A stretch of DNA of 64,000 bases from Clostridia bacterium (GTDB lineage: Bacteria > Bacillota > Clostridia > UMGS1883 > UMGS1540), in contig JAFZQX010000031.1 in the NCBI GenBank assembly GCA_017620205.1, forward strand, positions 62,001 through 126,000, read 5' to 3'. Positions 19,501 to 64,000 of this stretch are shown here, piece by piece. Position numbers and translations under genes: made by a program. Numbering within the stretch: position 1 is the first letter of the stretch; every line of letters starts with the position of its first letter. The notes under the pieces were generated by a model. The model was given only the letters and a program-made list of their open reading frames with translations. It made no database searches and was not told the DNA's origin.

Positions 19501-19534
19501 AGAAAGAGAATTGCAAAATGCAATTCTCTTTCTT
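19501..19534 (+). terminator. Hairpin terminator after the LysM gene
   Basis: A perfect 15-bp stem (19501-19515 with 19519-19533) and 3-nt loop directly after the stop codon. The 3' arm itself is T-rich (CTCTTTCTT). Confidence 0.75.
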
Positions 19535-19538
19535 AAAC

Positions 19539-19660
19539 TTTGTTTGCTTGCAAACAAAATATCACTACGTACGCAGTACGGAATATCGCTTAAACCGAAG
19601 GTTTAAATATCGCTTCGCACAGAGCGCGAAATAAAACTACCGAGTTTTATTGATTCGCAG
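19539..19660 (+). repeat. Hairpin array, copy 1: 8-nt linkers at exact 24-nt period
   Basis: Starts with the 20-nt palindrome TTTGTTTGCTTGCAAACAAA. Linkers ATATCACT (19559), ATATCGCT (19583), ATATCGCT (19607) and ATAAAACT (19631) then alternate with 16-nt, mostly palindromic blocks. Direct repeat of the array at 21186; together they flank the gene at 19697-21163. Confidence 0.85.
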
Positions 19661-19696: not shown

Positions 19697-21163
19697 TTAT
19701 TCCTGATAAAAATACTCCGTGCTCATTGTAGGCTTTAGCGAGCCGTTCCAATAATAAATTTTTATTGTTTTGACTTTTCCCGGGTTTACAAAATTTTGAA
19801 TGTTGACTGTTTCCGCTGTTTTGTCGGAGGACAGCGCAGCAACGCACAGTACTTTTCCGTTTTTGTCGTAAGCGCATAATATCGTAATTTCCGGAAGCGG
19901 CACGCTATGGTTAAGCGTTATTTTTTTTATACGTTTTTCCTTTCCGGAATATTGGTCTGTTATTTCGTCATATTTATCATACTCGCCATACTCGCACGTA
20001 ATATCAATTGTCTTATTATTCTCAAGCCTCGGAGTAATTACAATGTTTTCAGGCTGATTATAAATATCTATACATTGGCGAGGGTCTGACGACACAATTT
20101 CTCCGTTTGTTGAAGATACTATTGGGTAAGCAACATTTGCCTGAAGTAGTTCTCCGTTAGAATAAAAATCATTTGCATAATCGCCTAAGCCCCAGGAAAG
20201 TATTGCCTGCGAAGCGTCTGTGCGGACGGGAATTAAAAATTCTGCCGAACGCGTGCCTTTTTTTAGCGTAATTACATCTTCCCCTAACCAATATGAAGCG
20301 GAAGACAGACGCACTTTATATGTTTGGTCACACTCCGGGGCAGGACACTCTTCGGGCAACATAAGCGTACCGTGAACTGTCTTAAAGTCAGACGTCAGGT
20401 AAAAATTTACATCTTTTATATCGTTATTCTCCACTGCAAATTTTGTTCCGCGGACGGTATCCTTATAAAAGCTTTTTTGTATATCAACATACAGCTGCAT
20501 TTCATATTCCTGACCGCTTATTACGTTTAAAGAATACTGCGCTTCGCTTTGTCCCGCTTCACATGTGCAGGAAGTTTTTGCGACAAATTCATCACTTACC
20601 GCATAAATGGTAAAAACTTCATCATGAGCACACGGGGGAGACAAAACAATTTTACCGCCGATACTGTAAAACAAATTACAAGGTACAGAAATGTCCTCTG
20701 TTACGTTATAGCCATTTTTAAGACTGCCGATGTTTGTTTTTCTTGTCCAAGAAGACATTCCATAAGCGGTTTCCAGGTATGCCGCAACAGAAACTGTCGG
20801 ATTTGTCTTGCCGTCAACAAGACCAACAAGCTCATCATAAGTAAAGCTATATGTTGCAGAAGTTTCGCCTTCTTTAATCTCAACTTTATGCTCTCGTTTA
20901 CCGTTTAATTTTAAATCCGTCACTTCATCGTCGGGACGTTTTTGTTCCGGCCAACGGAAACCGGCTTTACCACCCCCGGAACCGCTTCCTCCGGATGATG
21001 ATCCTGATTCTATATCTTTGACTACTACAACAGCTTTTATCCCTCCTGCGGGCGCAGGCTGTGAAATAGTAACTGTCCCTGTCAAAACGCCATAATCATT
21101 CTCCGCATAAACAAAAGAAGAACTCATTATCAAAGCCAAAACAATTACTAATACTTTTTTCAT
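19697..21163 (-). CDS. Secreted protein with repeated beta domains, unknown function
   Basis: 488 residues. Signal peptide MKKVLVIVLALIMSSSFVYA. The rest appears to hold three related beta domains opening with similar strands: VLTGTVTISQPAP, IGGKIVLSPPCA and VHGTLMLPEECP. The same domains close with similar strands: GETSATYSF, GQSEAQYSL and GTRSAEFLI. A Gly/Ser linker (SGSSSGGSGSGGG) sits inside the first domain. The C-terminus (VKTIKIYYWNGSLKP) resembles the closing strand module found in many clostridial surface proteins. Probably an exported adhesin- or scaffold-like protein; no catalytic motif is seen. It is bracketed by two direct-repeat hairpin arrays, and no promoter is visible upstream except within the array. 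Confidence 0.82.
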   Translation of the reverse strand: MKKVLVIVLALIMSSSFVYAENDYGVLTGTVTISQPAPAGGIKAVVVVKDIESGSSSGGSGSGGGKAGFRWPEQKRPDDEVTDLKLNGKREHKVEIKEGETSATYSFTYDELVGLVDGKTNPTVSVAAYLETAYGMSSWTRKTNIGSLKNGYNVTEDISVPCNLFYSIGGKIVLSPPCAHDEVFTIYAVSDEFVAKTSCTCEAGQSEAQYSLNVISGQEYEMQLYVDIQKSFYKDTVRGTKFAVENNDIKDVNFYLTSDFKTVHGTLMLPEECPAPECDQTYKVRLSSASYWLGEDVITLKKGTRSAEFLIPVRTDASQAILSWGLGDYANDFYSNGELLQANVAYPIVSSTNGEIVSSDPRQCIDIYNQPENIVITPRLENNKTIDITCEYGEYDKYDEITDQYSGKEKRIKKITLNHSVPLPEITILCAYDKNGKVLCVAALSSDKTAETVNIQNFVNPGKVKTIKIYYWNGSLKPTMSTEYFYQE

Positions 21164-21185
21164 TTTATCGCGCCTCCTTTTTATC

Positions 21186-21310
21186 TTTGTTTGCCTGCAA
21201 ACAAAATATCACTCCGTACACAGTACGGAATATCGCTTAAACCGAAGGTTTAAATATCGCTTCGCGCCACGCGCGAAATATAACTTTGAGTTTTATTGCT
21301 TCGCAGGTTT
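21186..21310 (+). repeat. Hairpin array, copy 2: 8-nt linkers at exact 24-nt period
   Basis: Palindrome TTTGTTTGCCTGCAAACAAA, then linkers ATATCACT (21206), ATATCGCT (21230), ATATCGCT (21254) and ATATAACT (21278), spaced exactly 24 nt. Between them are blocks such as CCGTACACAGTACGGA and TAAACCGAAGGTTTAA. About 88% identical by eye to copy 1 and in the same orientation. Confidence 0.85.
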
Positions 21311-37783: not shown

Positions 37784-37785
37784 AA

Positions 37786-37966
37786 GGTGATAACTTGAAA
37801 GTACCTTTCAAGTTAAGCCTCCGGCGGAACTTATGCACGTGCGAAATTTTCGGCCGATGCCGAAACGCACATGTGCCATTTAATCTCTTTCATTCCTTGC
37901 TCCACAAGAAAGAGATATATTTGATTACTATTTGTGCCGACGCGTAGCGGCAGAATGGAGATTAAA
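37786..37966 (+). ncRNA. Structured 5' leader of mnmE (copy 1 of a shared leader)
   Basis: About 85% identical by eye to the region before lepA (63306-63485, - strand). Elements in order: hairpin AACTTGAAAG-TAC-CTTTCAAGTT; a conserved stretch CCTCCGGCGGAACTTA; a two-tier stem GCACGTGCG/CGCACATGTGC enclosing TTCGGC/GCCGAA; hairpin TCTCTTTC/GAAAGAGA with a conserved 16-nt loop; then AATGGAG, which is the mnmE ribosome binding site. A pair A37837-T37874 is G-C in copy 2. RNA function is inference. Confidence 0.65.
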
Positions 37967-39322
37967 ATGAACTTGGGCAATAACACCATCGCAGCAGTTT
38001 CAACGGCGCACGGCGTAGGCGGCGTAGCGGTTATAAGAGTAAGCGGCACAGAAGCGGCGCCTGTATGCGATAAAATCTTTAAAGGCAAAACGCCGGTGTC
38101 CTGCGCACAGCCGTATCTTATGCAGTACGGCAGCATAAAGAGTTTAAGCGGAGAGCTTATTGACAGGGTTTTGTGCGTTTACATGAAAGGTCCGCATTCA
38201 TATACGGGAGAGGACACGGTCGAAATTCACTGTCACGGCGGAATAATAGTAACGGAAAAGGTTTTGGGCGCGGTAATTGAAGCGGGGGCTTCACTCGCGG
38301 CACCCGGCGAATTTACGAAAAGGGCGTTTTTAAACGGAAAAATAGATTTGGCGGAAGCAGAAGCCGTAGGCGACATTATAAACGCCGAAACCGATTTGTC
38401 TTTAACGGAAGCCGTAAACCGCCTCGGCGGCACGCTCTCGGATGAAATAAATAAAATACGCGATGAAATTCTTGATATAACGGCTCAGATTCTGGTAACG
38501 GCTGACTATCCCGAAGAAGATATTGATACCGAAACGGCTTCGGGCTTTGCGAAAATGATAAAAAAAGCGCTGGAGTATACGGAAGGGCTTCTTGAAACAT
38601 CAAAGCGCGGTAAATTTATAAAAGACGGCGTAAAGTGCGCTTTAGTCGGCAGACCAAACACGGGCAAATCGTCGCTTTTAAACGCTTTATCGGGCGAAAA
38701 CAAGGCGATTGTTACTGATATTGAAGGCACAACGCGTGATATAGTTGAGCAAAGAATAGTTGAAGACGGTATTGTAATTACGCTTTACGATACGGCCGGT
38801 ATACGTGAAGGCGGCGAAGAGATCGAGAAAATAGGCATAAAGAAATCAATAGACTTTATAAAGGAAGCCGATATATGCCTTGCTGTTATGGAAAACGGTA
38901 ACATAAATGGTGAAGATATGGAAATTTTGTCTTTGCTTAAAGACAAAAAGCACATTGTTGTTTTAAACAAAAACGATATAAACGATGAGGACGGCGGAAT
39001 AGAAGGCGAGACTTTGAGCATTTCGGCAAAGACGGGTGCGGGGCTTGACATTCTCCGCAAAAGGATTGTAGAGCTTGTAACGGACGGCGCCAAAAGCTCC
39101 GTGGAGCGCGCGATGATTACAAATATAAGGCAAAAGGAAGCGCTTTTGAGAGCACGTGAAAACCTTCGCGGCGCGCTTTCTACAATTGAAGGCGGCTTTC
39201 CTATCGATCTTGCCGCGTCCGACCTTGAAAACGCGGCGTCATCGCTCGGAGAGATAACCGGTGAAACGGTAAATGATGAGATAATAGATAAAATATTTTC
39301 TAAATTCTGTTTGGGTAAATGA
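37967..39322 (+). CDS. mnmE: MnmE tRNA modification GTPase
   Basis: 451 residues. N-terminal tetrahydrofolate-binding domain, helical domain with inserted Ras-like G domain: GRPNTGKSSLLNALSG near residue 224, DTAGIREGGE (G3), NKND (G4). Ends FCLGK, the C-terminal CxGK motif with the functional cysteine. With MnmG it installs the carboxymethylaminomethyl group at wobble U34 of tRNAs. The ATG at 37967 is preceded by GGAG at 6 nt; a GTG at 37934 lies within the leader and has no site. The 5' leader resembles that of lepA. Confidence 0.96.
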   Translation: MNLGNNTIAAVSTAHGVGGVAVIRVSGTEAAPVCDKIFKGKTPVSCAQPYLMQYGSIKSLSGELIDRVLCVYMKGPHSYTGEDTVEIHCHGGIIVTEKVLGAVIEAGASLAAPGEFTKRAFLNGKIDLAEAEAVGDIINAETDLSLTEAVNRLGGTLSDEINKIRDEILDITAQILVTADYPEEDIDTETASGFAKMIKKALEYTEGLLETSKRGKFIKDGVKCALVGRPNTGKSSLLNALSGENKAIVTDIEGTTRDIVEQRIVEDGIVITLYDTAGIREGGEEIEKIGIKKSIDFIKEADICLAVMENGNINGEDMEILSLLKDKKHIVVLNKNDINDEDGGIEGETLSISAKTGAGLDILRKRIVELVTDGAKSSVERAMITNIRQKEALLRARENLRGALSTIEGGFPIDLAASDLENAASSLGEITGETVNDEIIDKIFSKFCLGK

Positions 39323-39523
39323 AAAAACAAACAAAACCGCGGTTTGTTCGTAGCAAAAAGCATAATGTTATAAAAAATTCGTTATTACGGATTTTTACAA
39401 TAAGTAGATTTAATAAAGAGTAATAATAAAAATGGACTGTGTGTAGTTTTAGAATTATTCTTTTGCTTTTTGCGGTCTGTGCATATTTTGGCGGCCTATG
39501 CAGATAGAGAAACGGAGAATACT
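39323..39523. repeat. mnmE-mnmG gap with diverged dispersed-repeat copy and terminator-like hairpin
   Basis: Contains GGTTTGTTCGTAGCAAAAAG (similar to 58008 and to the reverse of 47015), a hairpin AAAAATTCGT/ACGGATTTTT at 39372-39396 that could end mnmE transcription, and TTTTTGCGGTCTGTGCAT at 39467-39484, the repeat core in - orientation. The mnmG ribosome binding site ACGGAGA lies at its end. Confidence 0.65.
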
Positions 39524-43046: not shown

Positions 43047-43057
43047 TTTTTATGTTA

Positions 43058-43118
43058 TAATAACCTCACATGATATAAACGAAATCAAAGATTTCTATAT
43101 CATGGAGAACATTGAAGC
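43058..43118 (+). repeat. 61-bp perfect direct repeat, unit 1
   Basis: Identical to 43156-43216. Contains the hairpin CATGATATA...GAAATC-AAA-GATTTC-TATATCATG and ends ATGGAGAACATTGAAGC. In unit 1 that ATG opens an 18-codon reading frame with no ribosome binding site. Confidence 0.9.
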
Positions 43119-43155
43119 CGTCCGCAGCGGTGTTGTTACGTCTGCGGCCTTGCTT

Positions 43156-43216
43156 TAATAACCTCACATGATATAAACGAAATCAAAGATTTCTATATCA
43201 TGGAGAACATTGAAGC
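43156..43216 (+). repeat. 61-bp perfect direct repeat, unit 2
   Basis: Second copy, 98 nt from unit 1. The 37-nt spacer holds its own stem CCGCAG/CTGCGG. The ATG inside unit 2 is in frame with parA, but no Shine-Dalgarno precedes it. The rest of the gap (43217-43300) holds nothing I recognise. Confidence 0.9.
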
Positions 43217-43319
43217 ATACCGCGCGGCACGATGCGCCTTGCGACATGTTTTACTATTTAAACGTTTAACTGTTTTATTAATAACAGAAACAAAAAAACA
43301 CAAAGGAGGAGGAAAATAC

Positions 43320-46876: not shown

Positions 46877-47198
46877 GGGGCTGTGACAAAATGCACAGAC
46901 CGCAAAAGGCAACTAAATAAAATGATTTAGATTTGTTGTTTGCTTTGCAAATACACATAACGAAAGAACCTGCATGTATGCAGGTTCTTTTGAATTTCGC
47001 CTTTTGCTGCGGACAAACGTCACCTCTCGCACGTCGGAGTTTGCAGTTACTTAGCTCCAATTCGACCTTTGCGGTCGAATTTTCCGCACGTACTACGACT
47101 CCACATTCTCCCCAAAAGGTAAATAGCCTTTCGGGGCCCCATTTGAGTACGCCTTCGGGTTCCGTTTGTCCGTCCTGCACTATTTTCTCCTCGCCCCG
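46877..47198 (-). repeat. Dispersed intergenic repeat, copy after serS
   Basis: Starts GGGGCTGTGACAAAATGCAC then AGACCGCAAAA at the base after the serS stop. It contains a terminator hairpin AGAACCTGCAT/ATGCAGGTTCT-TTT at 46965-46991 and a stem around TTCGACC/GGTCGAA near 47069. It ends with a block (47163-47198) that reappears at 57905-57935. An open reading frame across it is judged spurious. The remaining bases to 47253 hold nothing clear. Confidence 0.8.
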
Positions 47199-48087: not shown

Positions 48088-48291
48088 GGCTTGCTAAAAT
48101 TGCGCAGACCGCAAAAAAAGAAAAGTATAGTAAAATCTTTTGTTTTACGCTTTGAATTTTAGAATAGTGATAAAGTTGAAAAACCTGCATAGGCAGGTTT
48201 TTCTTTCGTTTTGTTTATTAGTAAATCAAACAGCAAATCTAAATTATACTATTTAGATGCCTTTTACGGTCTGTGCATTTTGTCGCAGCCC
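48088..48291. repeat. Dispersed repeat filling the gap between convergent spo0A and rubrerythrin
   Basis: The left end GGCTTGCTAAAATTGCGCAG (48088-48107) and the right end TCTGTGCATTTTGTCGCAGCCC are imperfect inverted copies. Each touches the stop codon of the adjacent gene. The inside resembles the serS copy around AACCTGCA...CAAATCTAAAT. Confidence 0.8.
48179..48202. terminator. Bidirectional terminator between spo0A and rubrerythrin
   Basis: AAAAACCTGC-ATAG-GCAGGTTTTT, a perfect 10-bp stem with A-run on one side and T-run on the other, usable for both converging genes. Confidence 0.85.
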
Positions 48292-57852: not shown

Positions 57853-58168
57853 AGAAGAAAAGAGGCTGTAGCAAAACGATTTCGTTTTCTACAGCCTCTT
57901 TTGGGCGAAGAGAAAATAGTGCAGAACGGACAAACTGAGCACAAAAAGCCGATGTTATCGGCTTTTTGTGGTTACCCGAAGCTGTACGAGGGTACAGCGA
58001 GAGGCGAAGTTTGTTCGTAGCATAAAGCATTTAAAGACAAAAATTTGCCAAACGGCGAATTTTTACCTTGAAGCCAAGTCTATTTTACCATGGTGTTTCT
58101 CTAAAAGTTCCGTAATAACGGCTTTTTCTTTGCTTTATGCGGTCTGTGCATTTTGTCACAGCCCCTTT
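57853..58168. repeat. Dispersed repeat between convergent accA and pgsA
   Basis: The right end TCTGTGCATTTTGTCACAGC-CCC stops 3 nt from the pgsA stop. The left part shares AGAAAATAGTGCAGAACGGA with the serS copy, and 57990-58025 shares GCGAGAGGCGAAGTTTGTTC. It includes three stems: 57862-57898, 57940-57970 (CACAAAAAGCCGAT with its complement, 14 bp) and 58040-58065. Confidence 0.8.
57862..57902 (+). terminator. Strong terminator of the fab operon
   Basis: GAGGCTGTAG...CTACAGCCTC with inner AAAACGA/TCGTTTT, roughly 17 bp with one bulge, then TTTT. Immediately after accA. Confidence 0.88.
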
Positions 58169-61506: not shown

Positions 61507-63305
61507 CAGTCAAGCTTTAAGACGGACATAAACGCTTCCTGAGGCACCTCAACAGAGCCTACCTGGCGCATACGCTTTTTACCTTCTTTTTGCTTTTCAA
61601 GAAGCTTTTTCTTTCTGGTTATATCGCCGCCGTAGCACTTTGCCAAAACGTCTTTGCGAAGGGCCTTAACCGTTTCCCTCGCGATTATCTTGCCGCCTAT
61701 AGCCGCCTGAATCGGAACTTCAAAGAGCTGGCGCGGAATTGCTTCTTTCAGTTTTTCCGCAATTCTTCTCGCTCTCGGATACGCTTTTGATTCGTGAACT
61801 ATAAAGCTCAGTGCGTCTACCATATCGCCGTTTAAGAGGATATCAAGCTTTACGAGCTTGCTTTCAACATATTCTTTCATTTCATAGTCAAAGGAAGCAT
61901 AGCCCTTTGTACGGGATTTTAGCGCGTCAAAAAAGTCATAGATGATTTCGTTTAAGGGCATATCGTAGTGAAGCGAGGCGCGTCCCTCGTCTATATACTG
62001 CATTCCCTTATAAACGCCGCGCCTGTCCTGACAAAGCTCCATAATGCTGCCGACAAATTCCGTAGGCACCATAATATCCGCCTCAACAAACGGCTCCTCC
62101 ATTTTTTCTATCTCGGAGGGGTGCGGCATATTGGTGGGGTTATCGATATAGACAACCTCGCCGCTTGTCTTTGTTATTTTATATATAACGCCGGGAGCTG
62201 TTGTAACAAGATCGAGATTATATTCTCTTTCAAGTCGCTCCTGGATAATTTCCATGTGTAAAAGCCCCAAAAAGCCGCATCTGAAACCAAAGCCTAAGGC
62301 AATAGATGTTTCGGGCTCAAAAGTTAAAGACGCGTCGTTTAACTTAAGCTTTTCGAGAGAATCGCGAAGGTCGCCGTATTTCGCGCCGTCCGCGGGGTAA
62401 ATACCGCAGTAAACCATCGGGTTTACCTTTTTATAACCGGGCAGAGGCTCGGGCGCGGGGTTATCTGCGCGCGTTACCGTGTCGCCGACGTTTATGTCCG
62501 AAACCGTCTTGATGCTCGCTGTTATATATCCTACCTCGCCTGCCGAAATGCTTTTTGAGGGAGTCATGCCGTTCGGGCTTAAATAGCCTACTTCAACTAC
62601 CTCAAACTGTTTATTTGTCGCCATAAATCTTATGGTGTCGCCCGCTTTTAAAGTGCCGTCCATAACGCGCACGTAAACTATGGCGCCCTTGTAGCTGTCA
62701 TAGTAAGAGTCAAATATAAGAGCTTTTAAAGGAGCGTCATCGTCGCCCGTGGGCGCGGGAACTTTGTCCGCTATAAGGTCTAAAACGGCTTCTATGTTTG
62801 TGCCCTGCTTTGCGCTGATTCTCGGCGCGTCTTCGGCTTCTATGCCTATGATATTTTCTATTTCGTTTATAACGACCTCCGGCCTTGCGGCCGGCAGGTC
62901 AATTTTATTTATAACAGGCAGAATTTCAAGGTCGTGGTCAAGCGCCAAGTAAGTATTTGCAAGAGTTTGCGCTTCTATGCCCTGCGCCGCGTCCACAACA
63001 AGCAGAGCGCCTTCGCAAGCCGCGAGAGAGCGCGAAACCTCATACCCGAAGTCAACGTGACCGGGCGTGTCTATAAGATTAAAGATATACTCTTTTCCGT
63101 CTCTTTTGTATATAAGTCTTACGGCGCGCGCTTTAATCGTAATGCCGCGCTCGCGCTCAAGCTCCATGTTGTCAAGCAATTGCTCTTCCATGTCCCTTTC
63201 GGCGATTGTGCCCGTAAGCTCTAAAAGCCTGTCGGCAAGTGTGGACTTGCCGTGGTCAATATGCGCTATTATACAAAAGTTTCTGATAAGTGACTTATCT
63301 GCCAT
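61506..63305 (-). CDS. lepA: LepA / elongation factor 4
   Basis: 599 residues. G domain [46 protein letters not shown]-like domains II, III and V; LepA-specific C-terminal domain ending [16 protein letters not shown] and [13 protein letters not shown]. Ribosomal GTPase involved in initiation and back-translocation. The ribosome binding site is the final AATGGAG of a structured leader at 63306-63485 that matches the leader of mnmE. First gene of lepA-hemW-recX-rimO-pgsA. Confidence 0.97.
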
Positions 63306-63485
63306 CTAAAAATCTCCATTCCGCTCCGCGTCTGCACAAGCAGTAATTATGTTCTCTCTTTCATGCGGAGCAAGGAATGAAAGAGATTTTTGGCGCATGT
63401 GCGTTTCGGCGTCAGCCGAAAATTTCGCACGCGCATTAAGTTCCGCCGGAGGCATAGTTTGAAAGGTACTTTCAAGCTTTTCCTT
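63306..63485 (-). ncRNA. Structured 5' leader of lepA (copy 2 of a shared leader)
   Basis: The - strand carries, in order: hairpin TTGAAAG-TAC-CTTTCAA, CCTCCGGCGGAACTTAATG, two-tier stem GCGCGTGCG/CGCACATGCGC around TTCGGC/GCCGAA, hairpin TCTCTTTC/GAAAGAGA with loop ATTCCTTGCTCCGCAT, then GCGGAGCGGAATGGAG. That hairpin loop can pair with GCGGAGC and GGAAT next to the ribosome binding site (12 bp with a two-base bulge). It begins only a few bases after the kinase stop codon, so it may also be transcribed from upstream. Confidence 0.65.
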
Positions 63486-64000
63486 TCAGACCAAATTTTC
63501 GAGTTTAACCGAATTTACATATTTTGTAAGATCGTCAAAGGCGGGAATATCCGTGCCGTCTTTTTCTATTTTTGCCGCAGAAAACGAAGCGGCATATTTT
63601 ATGCACTCTTCAAAAGAAGCGCCGCGTGTTTTTCCGTATACAAAGCCCGCCAAGAAGCTGTCGCCCGCGCCTACGGTGCTTTTGACGGAAACGGGAAGCG
63701 GGCATACTCTGTAAACGCCGTCTTCCCCCGCGCACACTGCGCCCTCGCCTCCGAGGGAGAGCAAAACGTTTTTAATGCCTAAAGAAAAGAGCTTTTTCGC
63801 GGCTTTTGCCGCGTCGCTTACGGAGGTTATGGGTTCTCCGAGCAGCTCTTCGGCTTCTTTTTCGTTCGGCTTTATAATATCGGGCTTTTCCGCTATCGCA
63901 CATTTAAGTGCCGCGCCGCTTGTGTCTGCTGCAGATAAAGCTCCGCATGCTTTGCAAAGCTTTATTATTTTAGCGTAGGTATCATCACCTGCGCCCATAG
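63486..64000 (-). CDS. PfkB-family sugar kinase, probably 1-phosphofructokinase type (5' end cut by the window)
   Basis: The C-terminal 171 residues or so are present; the gene continues beyond the right edge. Visible: MGAGDDTYAKIIKLC (likely following a GSLP motif), PNEKEAEELLG, and the PfkB signature TVGAGDSFLAGFVYG with the catalytic Asp. Phosphorylates a sugar phosphate with ATP; the fructose-1-phosphate/tagatose-6-phosphate subgroup is suggested by the pattern, not proven. The ATG near 63998 is an internal methionine, not the start. The stop is followed within a few bases by the lepA leader. Confidence 0.85.
   Translation of the reverse strand, partial: MGAGDDTYAKIIKLCKACGALSAADTSGAALKCAIAEKPDIIKPNEKEAEELLGEPITSVSDAAKAAKKLFSLGIKNVLLSLGGEGAVCAGEDGVYRVCPLPVSVKSTVGAGDSFLAGFVYGKTRGASFEECIKYAASFSAAKIEKDGTDIPAFDDLTKYVNSVKLENLV

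Follow-up and report, generated by a model that had tools for sequence, protein, structure and literature searches.

Two genes of a Clostridia bacterium, mnmE and lepA, are preceded by nearly the same structured leader, and the question raised by this locus is what the leader does there. Both genes lie in a 64-kb stretch of contig JAFZQX010000031.1 (the window), and the original prediction had taken the leader as a cis-regulatory RNA tuning genes for two translation GTPases, with a dispersed repeat that happens to provide a ribosome-binding site (RBS) as the alternative. We found that the leaders belong to a family of insertions placed between the Shine-Dalgarno sequence (SD) of a gene and its start codon, and that their ends and target are shared with IS110 transposons. 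The leaders are very probably non-autonomous, IS110-related miniature elements, presumably guided by RNA to the SD–start-codon junction and mobilised in trans.

The leaders of mnmE and lepA belong to a dispersed family

The mnmE copy spans 37792–37966 on the plus strand, between the host SD and the start codon at 37967 (covariance model R1, 151.5 bits, E = 4.8e-43), and the lepA copy spans 63308–63478 on the minus strand, 5' of the start codon at 63305 (145.8 bits, E = 2.3e-41). They are 85.8% identical over ungapped columns and 81.6% identical when gaps are counted. Both are in sense orientation to their own gene and terminate in GGAATGGAG directly 5' of it, the 3' terminus being GGAATGGAGATT with 0–2 nt left to the start codon. 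The base pair A37837–T37874 of the mnmE copy is G63432–C63395 in the lepA copy. The identity of about 85%, the sense orientation and the A-T to G-C change claimed earlier were all confirmed, and so were the gene calls, as the downstream genes matched MnmE (NF003661, 3.6e-117) and LepA/EF4 (TIGR01393, E = 0). The upstream neighbours of the two copies are jag/eloR and a gene for a PfkB-type sugar kinase. The R1 model had no other strong match in the 64-kb window.

A search of the genome and its relatives had been proposed with the original prediction. When this genome (G000, 2.34 Mb; G- and L-numbers denote sampled genomes and loci) was searched with the mnmE copy, 12 other near-full-length copies of 76–92% identity were found along with fragments, which brings the near-full-length copies to 13, that is 11 beyond the two in the window. 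All of them are in sense to the following gene and are placed right after the apparent native spacer of an SD, and their GGAATGGAGATTNNN end adjoins the start codon or lies no more than three nt away from it; at one site, two full copies and a fragment form a tandem array with the junction GGAGATT^AACTTG (^ marks an element boundary). Covariance-model matches were obtained in 62 of the 391 sampled genomes of the class and in 42 of 223 genera, one genome having more than 20. The 3'-end pattern was found in at least 119 stretches of GTDB genomes, and the listed titles were Clostridia or unspecific Firmicutes, chiefly Lachnospiraceae and Oscillospiraceae and chiefly metagenome-assembled genomes with a few isolates; isolates with the motif include Catenibacillus scindens DSM 106146, Anaerostipes butyraticus JCM 17466, Lachnospiraceae bacterium JC7 and Diplocloster modestus. 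Plasmid and phage records that were searched gave no match to the element.

The position of the family was measured on 88 non-identical copies, a start codon being counted only when it opened an open reading frame (ORF) of at least 50 amino acids. Such a codon lay 0–4 nt from the element end in 75 of the 88 (control 5.9%) and exactly at 0 nt in 60, and most of the remaining 13 were tandem upstream copies, contig-edge copies, sister-class matches (see below) or cases where the start lay a few nt further. Overall, some 85–90% of the 88 copies adjoin a start codon in sense. On the other side, 63 of 86 copies had an SD-like 4-mer within the 16 nt preceding their left boundary, as against 15% in the control. 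The original prediction had held random orientation of the copies to speak against a regulatory leader; both orientation and position were found to be almost invariant. The downstream genes are functionally unrelated and have no common theme: translations read by eye include proA, a HIT protein, znuA, yvcK, an alcohol dehydrogenase, upp, ung, and fabG-like, sigma-E-like and spoIIIAH-like genes.

Two kinds of variant copies were also noticed. In one subfamily (L073, L075, L077, L150, L151, L154 and L329) the SD reads GGAAATT, GGGAATT, GGATATT or GGCGATT and the internal strand matches the altered SD; the L151 copy, an independent insertion, lies before an mnmE-like gene of a genus that is not related. 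Short copies with the right-end module only occur at the start codon at L045, L046, L047, L031 and L035, of which L031, keeping an SD-bearing loop as well, is probably an IS110 remnant.

Clean insertion between the Shine-Dalgarno sequence and the start codon

The sites without the element were compared with filled sites in relatives. In distant comparisons (G373 versus G151 and G102) the SD runs straight into the ATG of the empty site; the first such query had only about 75% identity, and base-level resolution came from the pair G055/G087, whose empty sites have flanks of 91–98% identity. The filled site GAATCCGGC^element^ATGAAAATG of G055 corresponds to GAATCCGGC-GCT-ATGAAAATG in G087, and AAGGAGGTGTTT^element^ATGACC of G055 to AAGGAGGTGTTT-TAT-ATGACT in G087. 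Conversely, GGGGAGCTGT^element^ATGAAACG of G087 corresponds to GGGGAGCTGT-TTTT-ATGAAACG in G203, and ATTGGTAT^element^ATGAAAGGAG of G087 to ATTGGTAT-AAC-GTGAAAGGAG in G055. In these pairs 3–4 host nt 5' of the start codon are swapped for the last three of the element, and there is no target duplication. The clean empty sites in close relatives indicate that the insertions are recent and occurred without target duplication. The ATTGGTAT site does not lie before a real start codon, as the gene has its own SD downstream, and a start codon is therefore not strictly required.

The same arrangement can be read at the two window copies. The presumed host SD of mnmE, AAGGTG (37784–37789, plus strand), is stranded 5' of the element, the SD and start codon being contiguous in the empty sites of relatives, and that of lepA is AAAGGA (63481–63486, minus strand). 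The element carries its own GGAG, at 37957–37960 (plus strand), 6 nt 5' of the ATG of mnmE, and at 63314–63317 (minus strand) for lepA. Each leader is thus read as an insertion between the SD of a gene and its start codon, whose right end brings a new SD (GGAATGGAGATTNNN^ATG) that would keep the gene translatable. The normal spacing of this SD would account for the tolerance of insertions before important genes. The stranded host SD could in turn pair with GCCTCC of the element, a candidate target guide that is kept in nearly all copies (37817–37822, plus strand, and 63448–63453, minus strand; complementarity by direct reading). The dispersed repeat that had been offered as the alternative was nearer the truth, except that the provision of an RBS is not an accident of a repeat but belongs to an element targeted to SD–start-codon sites.

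Probable IS110 partners and guide-like segments of the element

A scan of IMG/VR for the 3' end of the element gave three matches, two of which exposed an IS110 partner, the third (L361) looking like chance. On the viral contig of L359, a 449-aa transposase of the IS110 family (PF01548, 3.6e-22; PF02371, 2.9e-19) lies between two element ends: the far end, AGGAGGTTT^TAGTGTGAAAG, corresponds to the small elements' left end and adjoins an SD, and the near end is GGCGGCGGAATGGAGATTTAT^ATG. A second IS110 copy, L360, is frameshifted and sits elsewhere, but is bounded by the same ends. Transposases related to that of L359 were found in 17 of the 391 genomes sampled from the class and in six viral contigs. 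A profile made from the last 60 nt of the small elements matched eight IS110 loci by nhmmer (E from 3.5e-11 to 5.6e-5), each match stopping 1–6 nt from an ATG, and control loci gave no match to it; the right-end module ATTTGTGCCG..GCGGCAGAATGGAGATTAAA of the mnmE copy (37930–37966, plus strand) is homologous to the left end (LE) of the autonomous IS110. The left end of the miniature, formed by the P1 hairpin (AACTTGAAAG TAC CTTTCAAGTT; 37792–37814, plus strand; supported by covariation), resembles by reading the right end (RE) of the autonomous IS110 in the gene sense (T^AGTGTGAAAG and T^AACGTGAAAG). The far ends of the IS110 loci mostly abut SDs (CGAGGTGC^TAGTGTG, TTTAGGAGGA^TACTGTG, AAAGGGGTA^TAGGTTG and CGGAGGATAGT^TAGCGTG; L398–L400 less clearly), so that the autonomous elements have an SD upstream and a start codon downstream, as the miniatures have.

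The noncoding end of these IS110 elements has a conserved SD-carrying loop, CTACAAAGCAC followed by GAGGAGGAG or GGTGAGGTGAG and then TTGTA, and the loops matching the insertion target contain GAGGAGGAG or GAGGTGAG. A second loop repeats the element's own end (CATNNNAATC), its NNN agreeing with that end in 10 of 12 cases by script, one of the misses (L359) being a wrong CAT picked by the regular expression. By their sequence, the two loops would be the target and donor loops of a bridge RNA. The target choice would accordingly be guided by RNA, the presumed target loop of the autonomous relatives holding the SD-like sequence, and we infer that the IS110 recombinase mobilises the miniature copies in trans.

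The structure of the miniature RNA was assessed on 15 diverse, related copies from other genomes. In these, 49 pairs in 8 helices were 96.4% standard, two-sided changes occurred at 20 pairs, and 57 compensatory cells were counted versus 13.3 in shuffles (reached in 0 of 500), a signal that was also far above slid controls. The claim of a structured, conserved element of ~180 nt that is in sense to the gene and supplies the RBS was upheld, and strong covariation of base pairs, the check that had been suggested, was observed. In order, the element has the P1 hairpin, GCCTCCGGCGGA, the P3 hairpin (37835–37876, plus strand; covarying) and a strand NNNAATCTC..ATTCC..GCNNNNGC that can pair with the 3' end of the same element. 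In the mnmE copy this strand is a candidate donor guide, TTTAATCTC...ATTCC (37879–37896, plus strand), which complements GGAAT..GAGATTAAA of the right end (helices 5 and 7 of the covariation analysis) and covaries with the last 3 nt. The local P5 hairpin CTCTTTC/GAAAGAG (37885–37915, plus strand; covarying) uses the same CTC, which pairs either with GAG of the SD or within P5, the pairings being mutually exclusive. The predicted minimum-energy folds differ, with P5 in the mnmE copy and P4 in the lepA copy; both of these nested folds leave the SD mostly base-paired, and a pseudoknot is possible. The last 3 nt (TTT, ATT, AAA, AAT, ACT, GTT and AAC occur) matched the internal strand exactly in 49 of 67 copies, as compared with 16.7 expected and a maximum of 28 in 10,000 shuffles that ignore the relatedness of the copies. 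A conserved leader peptide starting from GTG, TTG or ATG in P1 was considered and rejected on frame-breaking length changes in the P1 loop and the junction.

Since GCCTCC can pair with the SD and the internal strand with the element's own end, the miniatures may carry their own guide RNA; alternatively, they may use the bridge RNA of autonomous elements. In the favoured reading the miniature would keep a structured RNA of ~180 nt, one segment of which complements the SD target and another its own end, and any effect on translation would be a further possibility. The alternative, in which the miniatures are inert IS110 ends served by a bridge RNA in trans and the internal structure is for binding the recombinase and not for guiding, deserves some credence without being favoured. 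It agrees with the target and terminal sequence common to miniature and autonomous elements, and with internal parts (P3, P5) in which no homology to the IS110 bridge RNA can be recognised, the end modules alone matching by reading and by profile. Against it stand the covariation of the internal segment with the last 3 nt of each copy, and a sister class directly 3' of TATAAT in which GGTATAAT/GATATAAT switch jointly between the G010 and G016 copies in the host flank, both internal strands and the right end, so that four segments change together as if the element had its own guide.

That lack of recognisable homology in the middle of the element also weighs against the IS110-related miniature reading as a whole, as do several other observations. 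The segment resembling a donor guide does not have the same strand relation in the miniatures as in the autonomous elements, the replacement of 3–4 host nt is not obviously explained by the published IS110 mechanism, and no Rfam model matches either the miniature or the autonomous elements, a known Rfam family having been rejected as there was no match at gathering score. No PF01548 match was obtained in G000 or in the copy-rich G055, G087, G004 and G012; the mobiliser would be absent from G000 now, whether lost or from outside, for example from a phage, or it was missed. The partner came by way of the L359 transposase. None of the IS110 loci found by Pfam in copy-rich genomes (L362–L373) had both ends, and among the loci read from a search with the P3 pattern no copy contained a gene.

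The weaker model matches share the P3 hairpin and occupy other sites. The class at the -10 box consists of three-hairpin elements placed directly 3' of TATAAT and ending in TGRTATAAT (L146–L148, L152, L153, L155–L160, L090, L336–L338, L344 and L350). A -35-like hexamer was seen by eye 17–18 bp upstream in several of them (L148, L155, L156, L159 and L090), and the counterpart of the L148 site in G087 lacks the insertion. A terminator class is found immediately 3' of the T-tracts in which intrinsic terminators end (L016/L335 at G000:C26:17411 in this genome, L079, L161, L162, L333, L342, L348, L354, L358 and the copies of G304). In both classes the host signal complements the sequence just after P1. 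No autonomous partner was found for either, so their link to IS110 is through the shared hairpin only. Taken with the SD class, they raise a more general idea, to which we give somewhat less than an even chance: stand-alone mobile guide RNAs, each a bridge-RNA-like gene with ends that borrows an IS110 recombinase, is self-programmed to a gene-expression signal (SD, -10 box or terminator T-tract) and restores that signal behind it.

A cis-regulatory RNA, riboswitch-like or responsive to a protein, that tunes mnmE, lepA and other genes and was spread by duplication appears improbable. The covarying structure, the exclusive pairing of CTC with the SD or P5 with its different folds in the two copies, and the nearly constant sense position at the RBS are what such a leader would have. 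A riboswitch or regulon was rejected on the incoherent functions of the downstream genes and on the orthologues in close relatives that lack the element, and the shared tuning of translation-GTPase genes found no support for the same reasons. Moreover, the ends are shared with IS110, and the SD-pairing stem is more simply read as a match of end to guide. The case is a warning that structured leaders common to unrelated genes need not be regulators. Most unlikely is a miniature of the IS200/IS605 type, in which a Y1 transposase would cleave at guide-paired SD and TATAAT sites. It would fit the subterminal hairpins, the end-to-guide pairing and the repetition of the target at the right end of the -10-box class, but was rejected, together with mobilisation by a RAYT, as the same ends are found on an IS110 partner, no Y1 match was found in G055, G087, G151, G273, G004, G012 and G001 though recent insertions distinguish G055 from G087, and the RAYT-like gene nearest to a copy is separated from it by a small gene. 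The RAYT-like gene, at L321 (G021:C57), encodes a Y1 transposase of 254 aa; its distance of about 300 nt to the copy is probably a coincidence.

The window contains other repeats. The intergenic repeat GACAAAATGCACAGACCGCAAAA occurs at 39468–39490 (minus), 46885–46907 (plus), 48262–48284 (minus) and 58135–58157 (minus); no shuffled sequence had a copy at the limit of 3 mismatches that these four satisfy. Direct repeats of 73 nt (43053–43125 and 43151–43223; 98 nt apart, 93% identity) lie just upstream of the ORF at 43200 and overlap its start, and a 106-nt repeat (19533–19638 and 21180–21285; 91% identity) flanks the ORF at 19697–21163.

Comparison with known RNA-guided and miniature elements

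HEARO elements, the RNAs associated with IscB, are structured RNAs reported to sit beside ATGA/GTGA-like sites. The mnmE copy differs from them in its partner, which is IS110 and not IS200/IS605, and Rfam gave nothing for it even with E values of up to 10 allowed. Bacterial miniature inverted-repeat transposable elements (MITEs) and small interspersed repeats such as BOX and RUP of pneumococcus (PMC3049150) are likewise short, dispersed, structured and non-coding and are presumably mobilised in trans. Unlike these, the present elements nearly all share a single functional location, the gap separating the SD from the start codon, and are in sense.

Bridge-RNA recombinases are recently described RNA-guided DNA-insertion enzymes (PMC11208160, PMC11187229). 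Guidance to RBSs by such an RNA is plausible here, and the system appears to have been programmed by nature for the commonest landmark of bacterial genomes, leaving cargo-free copies at many gene starts. If true, the SD, -10-box and terminator classes would be a natural series of reprogrammed guides from which targeting rules could be learned, and mobile DNA would be rewriting 5' leaders across Clostridia. None of the abstracts covered reports an SD-targeting IS110 or bridge-RNA MITEs derived from IS110, and PMC11208160 contains none of the words Shine, ribosome and start codon.

A close known system is the IS621/IS110 bridge RNA, one loop of which matches the target and the other the donor (Durrant 2024, PMC11208160). 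The present elements are like it in their ends, in a putative RNA of ~180 nt with loops matching target and donor, in the DEDD recombinase of the autonomous partners and in a target loop whose sequence corresponds to the site of insertion. They are unlike it in targeting the SD–start-codon junction of many genes with replacement of 3–4 host nt, and the window copies (175 nt) have no DEDD/Transposase_20 gene and no room for one, which makes them derivatives and not IS110 itself. In the seekRNA system of IS1111/IS110, a short RNA guides insertion and a mini-IS made of the ends only was moved in trans experimentally (Siddiquee 2024, PMC11187229). The short guide RNA, here presumed, and the mobile mini-IS are features in common, whereas here the miniature copies are natural and numerous and have guide-like segments of their own.
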